From: Magnetovibrio sp. PR-2 | GTDB lineage: Bacteria; Pseudomonadota; Alphaproteobacteria; Rhodospirillales; Magnetovibrionaceae | NCBI RefSeq assembly: GCF_036689815.1 | Contig: NZ_JBAHUR010000010.1 | Coordinates: 11,194 to 75,193, forward strand | Direction: 5' to 3' | Length of the DNA stretch: 64,000 nt | Shown here: piece after piece, positions 45,197-54,134 of the stretch | Layout of the letters: every line of letters begins with the position of its first letter | Position numbering within the stretch: position 1 is the stretch's first letter | Translations under genes and position numbers: made by a program | The notes under the pieces: generated by a model | Told to the model about the DNA's origin: nothing | Seen by the model: the letters and a program-made list of their open reading frames with translations, nothing else | Databases searched by the model: none

Positions 45197-45383
45197 AATC
45201 GCTCTCCCCTGCGTATTGGCTACGCCGGGGACCTGCCCGGCGTACCGAGTGGTCGAATTAAGTGCGGTGTTTTGAGGTTGCTCCGATTGCGGTATTACCC
45301 GTGCTGGAGCGAAGATCATAGGTCATCCAACTGTCCGCTCTTCCCAGGCCTTCAGTATACGACTTTGGCGGAGTAAATGCGAA

Positions 45384-45980
45384 TCATTTGCGCCGTTGGC
45401 TGGCGTAAAACTCGACGATTTGTGTGAGACCTTCAGGGCCATGATCTCGGTTTACGGCCTTGAGCTTGTCTTTCATCTTGGGCACGGTAAAACGCCTTTT
45501 GTTTTGAAAATCGTCCAGCGTCATGACCAGATAGGCTTTCACTTGTCCCGCCAAAACAGGGCCTTTTAAGGTTATGTCGCGCCCATTTCCGGTGTGACAT
45601 TGTTCGCAATACAGCGCGTGGAGCTCTTTGCCTTTGGCGGCTTTTTCAGGGGAAAAGGCGTTTTCAACCATCACAAAAGGTTGTGCGCTGAAATATGCAG
45701 ACAGAACCTCAATTTCGCTTTCCGTGTAGCCCTTGGCCATGCGGCCCATGATGGTGGATTGGCGCGAACCGGATTTGAAGTCCGCCAAGGTGAATTTCAA
45801 ATAGTCTTTCGTTAACCCTGAAATCGTCGGGATCGCGGGGCCCGCACTGGCGCCGTTCGGGCCATGACACGCCATGCACCCCCCAGCCAACATGTCTGGG
45901 GAGGCGTCCGCTGCAAGCAGTGCGTTCGATGCAAAGAGCGTTGAGAGGAGCCCCAAGACTTTGAGTGTCGATCTGAACAT
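45384..45980 (-). CDS. Diheme cytochrome c, c4-like
   Basis: A 198-residue periplasmic protein with signal peptide (cleavage after LLA) and two c-type heme sites in two similar halves, CMACH (Cys35, Cys38, His39) and CEQCH (Cys125, Cys128, His129). The length and two-domain layout are those of cytochrome c4, which passes electrons to terminal oxidases. It is last in the operon with the beta-propeller and the other diheme cytochrome and probably carries their electrons onward. Confidence 0.88.
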   Translation of the reverse strand: MFRSTLKVLGLLSTLFASNALLAADASPDMLAGGCMACHGPNGASAGPAIPTISGLTKDYLKFTLADFKSGSRQSTIMGRMAKGYTESEIEVLSAYFSAQPFVMVENAFSPEKAAKGKELHALYCEQCHTGNGRDITLKGPVLAGQVKAYLVMTLDDFQNKRRFTVPKMKDKLKAVNRDHGPEGLTQIVEFYASQRRK

Positions 45981-46005
45981 GTCTTAAGGTCTCCGGTTGA
46001 GAAAA

Positions 46006-47151
46006 TCAGGGCTTCGAGTTTTTCAGCTTTACGTGCAGAATTTTCCCGGTGTTTGTGCCCAGAAACATTTCGTCAGGCACATCGGTGAGGGTGACAAAGG
46101 GGCGCAGGCGGTCTTCGAACGAGATGGCCGCTGTTTCCGTCCCACTTTGATGATCCAAGACATGCAAAACGTTTTTCATGTCCAAAACGTAAACCCCAGC
46201 GTCATTGGCCACGAGCTCCGCCATGACAGGGGCCCAGGGCCGTCTTTTGCCGCTGGCCTTGGGGAAGTAATCGCTTTTGGCGCGCCAGTTAATCTCACCT
46301 GAGTGCGCATTCAGGGCATAGACCCAGCCTGTCGGCGACCACAGATATGTGGCGTCGCCATAGACCAAGTGCGAATTGATGAAGTTCCCCGAATACCAGT
46401 CCCACACAACTTTTCCCGTTTGGGCATCCACGCCAAACAGATTGTCCTTATACCCCCCCGCAACGATGGTGTTGGCGGATACATGAAGTTGTCTCAGATA
46501 CTGCCATTTTTTGGCGTTGTCGGTGACCCACTTCGTGGCCCCGGTGTCCGTGTCCATGGCGTAGAGCTTGCCGTCGCCCGGACCGAACAAGACCGTGTCG
46601 TCGTCGTAGGTTGTGGGGGCATACCAAATGCCCTTCTTTTCCTCCGTCGGATGGGACCAGACGACCTCGCCTGATAGGTCCAACGCCGTCATAAACGGCC
46701 CAATGCCAAGATAAATGTGATTGTTGTGAACGAACGGGGCGCCGACGGGATCAAAGCGCAGCCCCGGCGTTCGCTCAGGCTTCATGGACCAAGCGACGTG
46801 TCCGGTTTTTCGGTCCAAGGCGGTGATGTAGCTCCGCCCTAAGGCGAGAACCAAATGCCCAGCGATGCGGGGGCGAAAATCAGCCCCTTTGTCCAATTTG
46901 TGGGACCAGACCCGGCGGCCTGTTTTTACATCCCAAGCTTCCAAACTCACGTCCCCGGCGACATAAACAATGCCATCAGCGAAGGTTGTGGGGCGTAAGC
47001 TGGTGTTGTCCGACTGCCAGCTTTGCAACACGTCATATGATGCGTTTAGGTCTTGCGCGGCCAGTCGGGTTGAAAGAAAAGACGTCACCAGACACATCAC
47101 CATACAAACGATGAAGATGTGAACGTGGTGACGTCTTTGCCGTCGTGTCAT
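46006..47151 (-). CDS. PQQ-type beta-propeller protein (FoxY-like)
   Basis: A 381-residue exported protein. After an N-terminal hydrophobic segment (HIFIVCMVMCLVTSFL, cleaved or anchored) come repeated propeller blades with the W/Y-D-x-x-T-G-x-x-x-W pattern of PQQ enzymes: AWDVKTGRRVWSHK, ALDRKTGHVAWSMK, AMDTDTGATKWVTD, GVDAQTGKVVWDW, ALNAHSGEINWRAK. It is shorter than quinoprotein dehydrogenases (about 600), so PQQ binding is uncertain. It lies between two diheme cytochromes; diheme cytochrome followed by PQQ protein is also the order of foxE-foxY. Confidence 0.8.
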   Translation of the reverse strand: MTRRQRRHHVHIFIVCMVMCLVTSFLSTRLAAQDLNASYDVLQSWQSDNTSLRPTTFADGIVYVAGDVSLEAWDVKTGRRVWSHKLDKGADFRPRIAGHLVLALGRSYITALDRKTGHVAWSMKPERTPGLRFDPVGAPFVHNNHIYLGIGPFMTALDLSGEVVWSHPTEEKKGIWYAPTTYDDDTVLFGPGDGKLYAMDTDTGATKWVTDNAKKWQYLRQLHVSANTIVAGGYKDNLFGVDAQTGKVVWDWYSGNFINSHLVYGDATYLWSPTGWVYALNAHSGEINWRAKSDYFPKASGKRRPWAPVMAELVANDAGVYVLDMKNVLHVLDHQSGTETAAISFEDRLRPFVTLTDVPDEMFLGTNTGKILHVKLKNSKP

Positions 47152-47168
47152 TGGTGAACTAGCCAATG

Positions 47169-47975
47169 TTAGTCACATTTAGCGCCGTGTTCGATCCATT
47201 CGAACATGAGCTGAAGGTTCGGGTGATCGCGGTCTTCACTGGCACCAATGCCGCCAGGCATACGGTTTTCAACCAAGCGAAGGTACAGCTTGCTTTTCAT
47301 CACCTCGCCGGGAATAACAATCTTAACCGGCGGTTTGCCTTCTTCGGCTTTGGCGACACTGTCCGCGCCGAGCATGATGCCTTCATAAGTCGTCATGTCC
47401 AGTTCGTGGAAGCTGGGCGGCTCTTGGTTGGACATGTGGCATTCCGTACACGCCTGTTCGCCACCGTAAGCCGTCGGATCTTTGAACGTCGGCAGAACCT
47501 TTTGCTTGAATTGGTCGTCGTTTTTGGCGCCGTTTTCGATCCATTTTTTGATTTCCAAGATCGCAGGCAAATCGCTTGGAACGTCAAAGCGGACACCCAA
47601 AGGCATGCGGTTGTCCCGCATCCGGCGGCGGAAATTGCCTTTGTGGAAATCGCCAGGAACGATAATCGGGCCGTTTACGCTGCCCTTCTTGATGCCCTCG
47701 CACGTGGACAGGTCCAAACCTGCGGGGCTCTTTTTCGGGTCGTTGGATGTATGGCAAACGACACATGCAGCCCCTTCACCAAAGGCGTTGGGCAAGCGCA
47801 TCAACGTGGCGATGTAATCATACGGCACTTCAATATCGTATTGATCGAGAACACTCATGACCGCAGCATGCGTGTCTTCCATATCGTCATAATCTGAAGC
47901 CATTGACGGTTCAGATATAAATAAGCACGCCCCCAGGGCAGCAGCTGTGTACAATTTCGTAATTGTGGATTTCAT
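47169..47975 (-). CDS. Diheme cytochrome c (FoxE-like)
   Basis: A 268-residue periplasmic protein with signal peptide (cleavage after SMA) and two tandem cytochrome domains that repeat each other. Heme 1: CVVCH (Cys71, Cys74, His75) with Met124 in NRMPLG. Heme 2: CTECH (Cys176, Cys179, His180) with Met239 in NRMPGG. Each half also has an L-D-x-x-T-x-E-G-I motif and ends W-I-E-x-G-A-K. Two more Cys (92, 267) might form a disulfide. Size, heme number and the PQQ-protein neighbour resemble FoxE, the Fe(II)-oxidising cytochrome of Rhodobacter SW2. The start at 47975 has GGGAGGG upstream. Confidence 0.82.
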   Translation of the reverse strand: MKSTITKLYTAAALGACLFISEPSMASDYDDMEDTHAAVMSVLDQYDIEVPYDYIATLMRLPNAFGEGAACVVCHTSNDPKKSPAGLDLSTCEGIKKGSVNGPIIVPGDFHKGNFRRRMRDNRMPLGVRFDVPSDLPAILEIKKWIENGAKNDDQFKQKVLPTFKDPTAYGGEQACTECHMSNQEPPSFHELDMTTYEGIMLGADSVAKAEEGKPPVKIVIPGEVMKSKLYLRLVENRMPGGIGASEDRDHPNLQLMFEWIEHGAKCD

Positions 47976-48194
47976 AAGATCCCTCCCAGGTCCAAGAAAC
48001 AAACTCCTTAAGCGCAATCGGCAAATGATTTATCGTACATGAGCAGACGCTAATGTACTGTAATTGCCGCATTTTCTGTGCATAAGCTGATGTGCGACTC
48101 TATCATTACACATAACGTTCATGGTTTTTTTGACATAAACCTTTAGCCTAAAACCCGGGTTATACGGGGTGGGGAGCTATGAAAGTCGTACTTT

Positions 48195-48776
48195 TTGGCC
48201 CAAGATAAAAAATCAGGGCAGGGGAACCCGATCATCGTGTCGAACAACAGCACAAAATTTGCGAGCAAGACGTGGGGCAAGATTCTCGCCGTCGCGTTTG
48301 TTGTGACAGCCTTTTGCGAGGTGTTTTTGCTGATCGATGTAGCGGCGGATTTCCTTTATATCGACATCGACACCAGCTGGCTGGATCACAATGTCTTGGA
48401 ATTGATCTCGGTGCTGAGCTTGGGCGTGGCGTTGATCGCCATCGGCACGGTGTTGGGCGTGTTGTTTCGCGAACGCGAAGGTTTTCAAGTCACGGTTCAG
48501 GCGGCGACGGGTGAGTTTGCCCACATTGTCGAAGCCAAGTTCGACGATTGGCTGTTAAGCCCCTCGGAACGCGAAATCGCGTTTTTGCTGATCAAAGGTT
48601 ACAGCGTGCAGGAAATATGCGACCTGCGCGACACCCGCCCCGGCACCGTCAAAAGCCAAAGCAACGCCATATACCGCAAGGCGGGCGTGCACGGACGCAC
48701 GGAATTGGTCGCCTATTTTGTTGAAGACCTTTTGGGCGGCGAGAAGCTGGTGAAGGACGGTTCAGAGCAAGTTTGA
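48195..48776 (+). CDS. Membrane-anchored LuxR-type regulator
   Basis: About 190 residues. Two hydrophobic helices (ILAVAFVVTAFCEVFLLIDV and VLELISVLSLGVALIAIGTV) precede a cytoplasmic LuxR/GerE helix-turn-helix (LSPSEREIAFLLIKGYSVQE, RPGTVKSQSNAIYRKAGVHG). It therefore anchors a DNA-binding domain in the membrane and may sense envelope or redox state. The start is unclear: TTG at 48195, GTG at 48237 after AGGGG, or an out-of-frame ATG at 48179 behind a strong GGGGAG. It is divergent from the cytochrome/beta-propeller operon and is a likely regulator of it. Confidence 0.82.
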   Translation: MAQDKKSGQGNPIIVSNNSTKFASKTWGKILAVAFVVTAFCEVFLLIDVAADFLYIDIDTSWLDHNVLELISVLSLGVALIAIGTVLGVLFREREGFQVTVQAATGEFAHIVEAKFDDWLLSPSEREIAFLLIKGYSVQEICDLRDTRPGTVKSQSNAIYRKAGVHGRTELVAYFVEDLLGGEKLVKDGSEQV

Positions 48777-52469: not shown

Positions 52470-52556
52470 TGTCATCTCACCTTCAACAAATCATGAAATA
52501 TTGAGGCCTGTGGCTTTGAAGCCAAAGCGTTGTTCAGCGACAGGGGGAATCCGATC

Positions 52557-53057
52557 ATGACCGCAGATAAAGTGTTCAATGTCTTATTCTTATGCACGGG
52601 CAATTCCGCGCGCTCCATTATGGGCGAAAGCATCATCAATCGCGAAGGGCTCGGAAAGTTCAAGGGCTTCAGCGCCGCAAGCGGCGCAGTTGGCGAGGTT
52701 CATCCACGTGCTTTGCAGTTGTTGTCCTCAATGAATTATCCGACCCAGATTTTGCGCTCGAAAAACTGGGATGAGTTCGCCGCCGAAGATGCCCCGGTGA
52801 TGGATTTTGTCTTCACTGTGTGCGACGACGCTGCGAAAGAAACCTGCCCAGTGTGGCCCGGTCAGCCGATGACGGCGCATTGGGGCATTCCCGACCCGGT
52901 TCAAGCGACGGGCACGGACAGTGAGATTGCCCAGGCCTTTAACGACACGTATCGCATGCTCAACCAGCGGATCTCCATCTTTACCAATTTGCCATTGGCT
53001 GCTATTGACCGTTTGTCCTTGCAAAAACGCCTCGACGATCTGGCCCAGGAGTCCTAA
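52557..53057 (+). CDS. arsC: Arsenate reductase, low-molecular-weight phosphatase type
   Basis: Reduces arsenate to arsenite with thiols. The 166-residue protein has the phosphatase loop LFLCTGNSARS (nucleophile Cys13) and the later cysteines Cys89 (VCDD) and Cys97 (ETCPVW) of the thioredoxin-coupled type. The ATG at 52557 has GGGGGAA upstream. The stop is directly followed by the acr3 start (TAAATG). No ArsR gene is next to it, so control must come from elsewhere. Confidence 0.9.
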   Translation: MTADKVFNVLFLCTGNSARSIMGESIINREGLGKFKGFSAASGAVGEVHPRALQLLSSMNYPTQILRSKNWDEFAAEDAPVMDFVFTVCDDAAKETCPVWPGQPMTAHWGIPDPVQATGTDSEIAQAFNDTYRMLNQRISIFTNLPLAAIDRLSLQKRLDDLAQES

Positions 53058-54134
53058 ATGACAGCACAATGCGACGTCACCGCTAAAAAGGCAGAAGGCG
53101 CTGAACTTGGCACCTTTGAACGCTACCTTACGGCTTGGGTTGGGCTGTGCATTGTGGCTGGGATCGGTTTGGGACATTTCTTTCCCGCACCGTTTCATTT
53201 GGTCGGTAAAGCCGAAGTCGCGCAGGTGAACATGCCGGTGGCGGTGTTGATCTGGCTGATGATCATCCCGATGCTGCTCAAGATCGACTTTCGCGCTCTG
53301 CACCACGTCAAGGAACATTGGCGGGGCGTCGGTGTGACCTTGTTCATCAACTGGGGGGTGAAGCCGTTTTCCATGGCGGCTTTGGGGGCGTTGTTCATCG
53401 GCTATTTGTTTCACGATATGTTGCCCGCCGATCAGATCGAGTCCTACATCGCGGGCCTGATCATTTTGGCCGCAGCACCGTGCACCGCCATGGTGTTCGT
53501 GTGGAGCAACCTTTCGGATGGGGAGCCGCACTTTACCCTCACCCAAGTGGCGCTTAACGACCTCATTATGGTGTTCGCGTTTGCCCCCATTGTGGGTTTG
53601 TTGTTGGGGTTGTCGTCTATTCTTGTGCCGTGGGATACGTTGCTGATCTCAGTCCTGGTGTTCATCGTCGTTCCGGTGATCTTGGCCCAGGCTTGGCGGG
53701 CGTATTTGATCAAGCAAGGCGGGGAAGCCGCTTTGGCGCGGGTGCTCGGTTTTACCCATCCCATCTCGCTTCTGGCTTTGTTGGCAACGTTGGTTTTGCT
53801 GTTCGGGTTTCAAGGTGAACAGATTTTGGCCCAACCCATGGTCATCGTCTTGCTCGCCATACCGATTTTGATCCAGGTCTACTTCAACTCAGGCTTGGCT
53901 TACGTGTTGAACCGCAAGTTCGGTGTCGCCCATTGTGTGGCGGCCCCGTCGGCCTTGATCGGGGCAAGCAACTTTTTTGAGCTGGCCGTGGCGACGGCCA
54001 TTGGCCTGTTTGGCTTCGATTCCGGTGCTGCTTTGGCGACGGTCGTGGGGGTGTTGGTGGAAGTTCCGGTGATGCTGTCGGTGGTGCGTATCGTCAATGC
54101 GACCAAGGCTTGGTATGAAAAAGGCGCGGCTTAA
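53058..54134 (+). CDS. acr3: Arsenite efflux transporter, ACR3 family
   Basis: Exports arsenite. The 358-residue membrane protein has ten predicted helices and the family motifs VLIWLMIIPMLLKIDF, AGLIILAAAPCTAMVFVWS (with the conserved Cys) and FNSGLAYVLNRKFGV. It is the second gene of the arsC-acr3 pair, starting immediately after arsC. Confidence 0.93.
   Translation: MTAQCDVTAKKAEGAELGTFERYLTAWVGLCIVAGIGLGHFFPAPFHLVGKAEVAQVNMPVAVLIWLMIIPMLLKIDFRALHHVKEHWRGVGVTLFINWGVKPFSMAALGALFIGYLFHDMLPADQIESYIAGLIILAAAPCTAMVFVWSNLSDGEPHFTLTQVALNDLIMVFAFAPIVGLLLGLSSILVPWDTLLISVLVFIVVPVILAQAWRAYLIKQGGEAALARVLGFTHPISLLALLATLVLLFGFQGEQILAQPMVIVLLAIPILIQVYFNSGLAYVLNRKFGVAHCVAAPSALIGASNFFELAVATAIGLFGFDSGAALATVVGVLVEVPVMLSVVRIVNATKAWYEKGAA

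Follow-up and report, generated by a model that had tools for sequence, protein, structure and literature searches.

What would a foxE-foxY gene pair do in a bacterium that does not appear to live by light? Although the Fe(II) cytochrome FoxE is familiar from a phototroph, full FoxE is accompanied by a reaction-centre match in 5 of 28 genomes of the order examined here; the other 23 gave none, with the proviso that some genomes are incomplete. The locus that raises this question lies in a 64 kb stretch of DNA (64,000 nucleotides, here called the window), which is part of contig C10 of the 3.75 Mb genome of Magnetovibrio sp. PR-2 (G000). We favor, with a probability of roughly one half, the reading that this is a foxE-foxY operon of a non-phototrophic host with a captured FccA, through which electrons would pass from Fe(II) to FoxE, then to FccA and on to a haem-copper oxidase, supporting CO2 fixation by RuBisCO. 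From the genes and their setting, we infer Fe(II) as the donor, the order of carriers and the role of FoxY.

A Dihaem Cytochrome and Its Propeller Neighbor

The locus comprises three minus-strand ORFs of 268, 381, and 198 aa, in the order foxE, foxY, and an FccA-type gene (Table 1). The tight spacing on one strand that the original prediction described is borne out by their positions; as calculated from the coordinates, foxE and foxY are separated by 17 bp (2 bp if the TTG start is used), and foxY and the FccA-type gene by 25 bp. By inspection, all three products (P0001, P0002, and P0003) carry signal peptides, and the three genes are presumably co-transcribed. A consensus scan of positions 45200-48300 returned 3 promoter-like sites (2.1 expected; none above chance), with 0 in the divergent region at 47976-48194, and 4 terminator-like sites (4.7 expected). 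Elsewhere in the window, at 52530-54134, an LMWPc-family gene adjoins an SBF-family gene; by inspection, the former encodes an arsenate reductase and the latter an arsenite exporter of the ACR3 type.

Table 1. Features of the foxE-foxY locus, in coordinates of the window.
Feature	Position	Strand	Basis or remark
foxE homologue P0001, dihaem cytochrome c, 268 aa	47169-47975	minus	phmmer vs PDB, haem-ligand alignment
P0001 haem I motif CVVCH	47751-47765	minus	residues 71-75
P0001 Met124	47604-47606	minus	
P0001 haem II motif CTECH	47436-47450	minus	residues 176-180
P0001 Met239	47259-47261	minus	
foxY homologue P0002, PQQ_2/BamB-type propeller, 381 aa	46006-47151	minus	Pfam, synteny, alignment, AlphaFold2 model
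P0002 possible alternative start TTG	47166	minus	
Orphan FccA-type dihaem cytochrome c P0003, 198 aa	45384-45980	minus	PDB matches 3vrd, 1fcd
Divergent LuxR/GerE-type regulator, 193 aa, start uncertain	48195-48776	plus	PF00196 GerE match
Divergent intergenic region, presumed promoter-bearing	47976-48194	.	position only

Similarity to FoxE over both haem domains had been set beforehand as the sequence half of the test of the prediction, and it was found: in a phmmer search of the PDB, P0001 matched FoxE (5MAB/5MVO) at E 4e-78 and 265.5 bits, with residues 33-268 of the query aligned to 53-291 of the chain, and one further PDB sequence appeared at E<=10 (at 0.53). Identity to the SW2 FoxE chain is 53.0% over 234 aligned residues. 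The haem ligands (C71, C74, H75, M124, C176, C179, H180, and M239) are kept in 40/40 aligned sequences and the disulfide cysteines (Cys92 and Cys267) in 34/40, the remaining 6 being a distant clade described below; every one of these residues of P0001 aligns with SW2 FoxE. Pfam gave one family over its cut-off for P0001, PSCyt1 (7.3e-09), and a family scan alone would therefore not name FoxE. Judged by its sequence, P0001 thus adds one more FoxE homologue to a set already known, and it may oxidize Fe(II). The two haem motifs and the two methionines had been predicted correctly, although the pairing of haem and Met within each repeat (CVVCH with Met124, CTECH with Met239) is probably crossed, because in the model of a Rhodoferax FoxE, described as similar to 5MAB, the C-terminal Met is the ligand of haem I and the earlier Met that of haem II (PMC10654088). 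By alignment, these correspond to Met239 and Met124 of P0001, respectively.

The second protein, P0002, had been described as a PQQ-type beta-propeller, and it does match PF13360 (PQQ_2/BamB type) at 7.6e-28. A scan of genome contigs found a FoxY homologue following FoxE in 11/11 named loci, including those of M. blakemorei, two Magnetospirillum, Roseospira, Roseospirillum, Rhodobacter sp. Har01, and a Chromatiaceae MAG, and in a full-length alignment of 12 FoxY sequences identity to P0002 ranged from 31 to 57%. This synteny and alignment support the identification of P0002 as a FoxY, whereas the notion of a PQQ made by the host is not supported, as no PqqC match was found in G000. PqqC was present in 1 of the 20 genomes searched (G101); PqqE exceeded its cut-off in 0 of the 20, thus not in G101 either, nor in any of 14 controls, in a search that had no positive control. 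The AlphaFold2 model of P0002 (pLDDT 89.0) has 32 strands, the number that eight blades of four strands each would give. Among the best 50 of its 1,997 PDB fold matches, the nearest is BamB and no PQQ dehydrogenase occurs; by sequence, PQQ alcohol dehydrogenases reach 2.1e-07 at best, below BamB at 1.2e-10. PQQ enzymes generally rely on two vicinal cysteines, and BamB is not known to carry a redox cofactor. The two cysteines of P0002, residues 16 and 20, both fall inside the signal peptide. Given the folds, the sequence ranking, the cysteine positions, and the lack of a PqqC match, a PQQ-dehydrogenase reading of P0002 is thought unlikely and a PQQ cofactor in this protein doubtful, although the host may take up PQQ from outside. 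The missing PqqC puts the usual “PQQ protein” label of FoxY in question.

The Third Gene and the Divergent Regulator

The third protein of the operon had been taken for a c4-like dihaem cytochrome. Its dihaem nature stands, both haem motifs being kept in an alignment with the host's own FccA, while the c4 label does not: P0003 matched FccA in the PDB at 5.7e-37 and 130.4 bits (3vrd) and at 7.9e-33 and 116.9 bits (1fcd), aligned over residues 27-196 of 198, vs 50.4 bits for cytochrome c4 (6q2u), and on these scores a plain c4 reading was rejected. At a threshold of 1e-25, there are 35 FccA-type matches in 33 of the 317 genomes of the order. Leaving aside the window copy and four of the other 34 matches for which there was no locus, FccB adjoins FccA in 30/30 examined cases. 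In the 64 kb window, FccB gave no tblastn hit at 1e-8, with a query (L105) confirmed as FccB by its FCSD Pfam domains PF21706 and PF09242. The host genome does carry an FccA-FccB pair on another contig, C3, and the FccA of that pair is 43% identical to P0003. P0003 sits on a long branch (1.54) outside the 7-row FccA clade of the genus (98/96), its place in the tree not being settled, and its origin as a recent duplicate of the genus FccA is not supported. By these comparisons, P0003 is an orphan FccA that has so far been seen in G000 alone. Among the foxE-foxY loci, 1/27 has an FccA-type third gene, which disposes of the cytochrome/propeller/third-cytochrome trio as a recurring, conserved unit and means that P0003 may be a chance neighbor.

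In another genome (G117), genes for a one-haem cytochrome and an FccB-like protein lie ~4 kb beyond foxY (L083, 13025-14636), and two FccA matches occur within ~27 kb of foxE.

The regulator gene divergent from foxE matches PF00196 (GerE) at 1.6e-06, over the cut-off, and by inspection its product has hydrophobic N-terminal segments. LuxR-type homologues were found within 1.5 kb of foxE at 5/27 foxE-foxY loci (the window, L022, L024, L032, and L111) vs 0/15 loci without foxY. The gene is divergent from foxE in four of these five; at L032, which has the weakest match (64.6 bits), it runs in the same direction. The LuxR/GerE-type regulator is thus a candidate controller of the operon.

FoxE Clades, Host Content, and Possible Electron Sinks

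Across the order, P0001 has matches at 1e-20 in 33/317 genomes, of which 28 have matches below 1e-70 and were counted as carrying full FoxE, the weaker G003, G018, G098, G099, and G101 being left out. A FoxY homologue stands beside 27/42 foxE-family loci, a count that omits L084-L087 and L092 as repeats, as well as G314 and G099, for which there was no long stretch (2 of 37 matches). In a tree of 40 FoxE sequences, with L039, L095, and L102 left out, P0001 was not grouped with SW2 FoxE within the family. A distant clade of 6 rows (100/100) has a FoxY-like gene beside each row, and a separate clade of 13 rows (100/100) is without foxY. Within the latter, the cd1 nitrite reductase gene nirS lies no more than 8 kb from FoxE in 7/13 rows (L034, L036, L038, L097, L099, L101, and L104); 6/7 of these loci have a gene of the tetrahaem NapC/NirT type and 6/7 a dihaem cytochrome gene. 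The neighbor families were confirmed for the set at L036. Possibly, FoxE of this nirS-linked clade feeds electrons to nitrite reduction.

Distant FoxE-like and FoxY-like genes form a pair at L039-L043, L111, and L112. At L040-L042 the pair is followed by genes for a DAO-family oxidoreductase and a CopD-family protein, and the same order is seen in the foxE-foxY loci L033 and L035. M. blakemorei MV-1 (G012) has two FoxE genes, one with foxY (L025) and one that belongs to the nir-linked clade and stands alone (L037). The host genome also encodes a second, distant FoxE-like dihaem protein on contig C6 (L044, 8046-8948; 52 bits).

What electrons from FoxE could reach in this host was considered from its gene content. 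G000 has no Photo_RC (PF00124) match at 1e-20, two RuBisCO hits (467.7 and 413.3 bits), three COX1-family (haem-copper oxidase) hits over the cut-off, and nine MCR (magnetochrome) matches, at least one of them over the cut-off among those listed. NirS was rejected as an electron sink in this genome, where it had no match at 1e-50. The host is probably non-phototrophic, autotrophic, and magnetotactic, and its content would fit electrons ending at a terminal oxidase and not at a reaction centre. Autotrophic growth on thiosulfate, sulfide, or formate is described for M. blakemorei, so that inorganic donors fit the genus; the physiology given in the accessible part of the same source names no Fe(II)-dependent growth, which counts against an iron reading (PMC4306944).

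As we picture the iron chain, the two haems of FoxE would accept electrons from Fe(II) dissolved in the periplasm. FoxY would most likely dock or stabilize FoxE, with no host-made PQQ, rather than work as a PQQ dehydrogenase. The orphan FccA, having no flavoprotein, would be a dihaem shuttle toward the haem-copper oxidase, and CO2 would be fixed with RuBisCO. The FoxE/FoxY pair may in this way be wired to respiration instead of light.

The FccA-type neighbor could equally point to sulfur, with the FoxE-like cytochrome and the FccA relative taking electrons from sulfide or thiosulfate, not iron, in a periplasmic oxidation. The closest relationship of P0003 is indeed to FccA, the host has its own FccA-FccB pair at C3, M. 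blakemorei grows on sulfide and thiosulfate (PMC4306944), and G117 has FccB-like and FccA-like genes at distances of 4 to 27 kb from its foxEY. However, the sulfide dehydrogenase flavoprotein is missing beside P0003, P0001 specifically matches an Fe(II) cytochrome, and 26/27 foxE-foxY loci are without FccA within 3 kb, and we regard sulfur oxidation as rather unlikely. Another reading is redox control of iron for magnetite, in which FoxE and FoxY would set the periplasmic Fe(II)/Fe(III) ratio for magnetosomes rather than yield energy. Magnetochromes over the cut-off were found in 10/28 full-FoxE genomes vs 28/289 others, a difference (Fisher p 0.0005) that takes no account of relatedness or of genome incompleteness. 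The 38 genomes counted are 44 minus the six weakest, which were taken as below the cut-off, while every one of the ten shared with the full-FoxE set is over it. Against this reading, 28/38 magnetochrome genomes are without full FoxE and 18/28 full-FoxE genomes without magnetochromes over the cut-off, and such a role seems to us distinctly improbable.

P0001 may also be a general electron carrier, or serve Fe(II) detoxification, moving periplasmic electrons with no energy gained from iron, because the separate FoxE clade partly adjoins nirS (the 7/13 rows noted above). That clade is itself well separated (100/100), though, and the foxE-foxY pairing, kept in alphaproteobacterial loci and in one Chromatiaceae locus, suggests a dedicated partner; a role of this kind appears unlikely. 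The chain from Fe(II) through FoxE and FccA to the oxidase is the reading that we prefer. A wider view, which we put forward tentatively and hold to be possible rather than probable, is that FoxE serves as a general-purpose entry module for Fe(II) with three sinks, namely photosynthesis (foxEYZ), O2 respiration via a captured FccA (the window), and nitrite respiration (nirS-nirT-foxE). If this were the case, light-independent and nitrite-linked iron oxidation through FoxE would be widespread, and this could be tested within the order. If the pair of the window oxidizes iron, magnetotactic bacteria that can be cultivated, Magnetovibrio among them, may be capable of iron lithotrophy without light, which would share its iron pool with magnetite formation. 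The orphan FccA would then be a part of sulfide oxidation put to new use as a wire between iron and the oxidase.

Comparison With Known Iron and Sulfur Systems

Published work has already described foxE or foxEY in Magnetovibrio and Rhodospirillaceae. Operons resembling foxEY, as a rule without foxZ, were reported in Rhodospirillaceae, Rhodocyclales, and Burkholderiales, and the genera with fox components include Magnetovibrio, Magnetospira, and Roseospira (PMC10654088); foxE was also noted in a MAG near M. blakemorei (PMC8446621). A limited search of open-access text found no mention of the orphan FccA, the LuxR-type neighbor, or the nirS-linked FoxE clade, and the accessible text on foxEY-like pairs likewise mentions no FccA third gene, LuxR-type neighbor, or nirS-linked FoxE (PMC10654088).

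On the sulfur side, the nearest known system is flavocytochrome c sulfide dehydrogenase (3VRD, 1FCD), whose FccA subunit is homologous to P0003; there FccA has an FccB partner, whereas P0003 is without FccB in the window. The best NCBIfam model for P0003 is the periplasmic dihaem shuttle PdsA (NF049874), yet its 100.2 bits are far below the curated cut-off of 330.

On the iron side, the comparison is with foxEYZ of Rhodobacter ferrooxidans SW2, which, like the window, has a FoxE with both haem domains, the ligands, and the disulfide cysteines, followed by a propeller FoxY (here compared through the sequence of Rhodobacter sp. Har01, 34% identical to P0002, and not through SW2 FoxY). The foxE-foxY core anticipated by the original prediction holds, through the FoxE match and FoxY synteny, while a cytochrome c4 in place of foxZ gives way to an FccA-type gene. 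No foxZ-like gene was seen adjoining the operon; the genes that follow foxY are the FccA-type gene and one for a Ribosomal_S30AE protein. The two systems differ in their hosts, SW2 being phototrophic and G000 having no reaction-centre match, and in the third gene, which in SW2 is foxZ, encoding the inner-membrane transporter FoxZ, and in the window encodes an FccA-type cytochrome.
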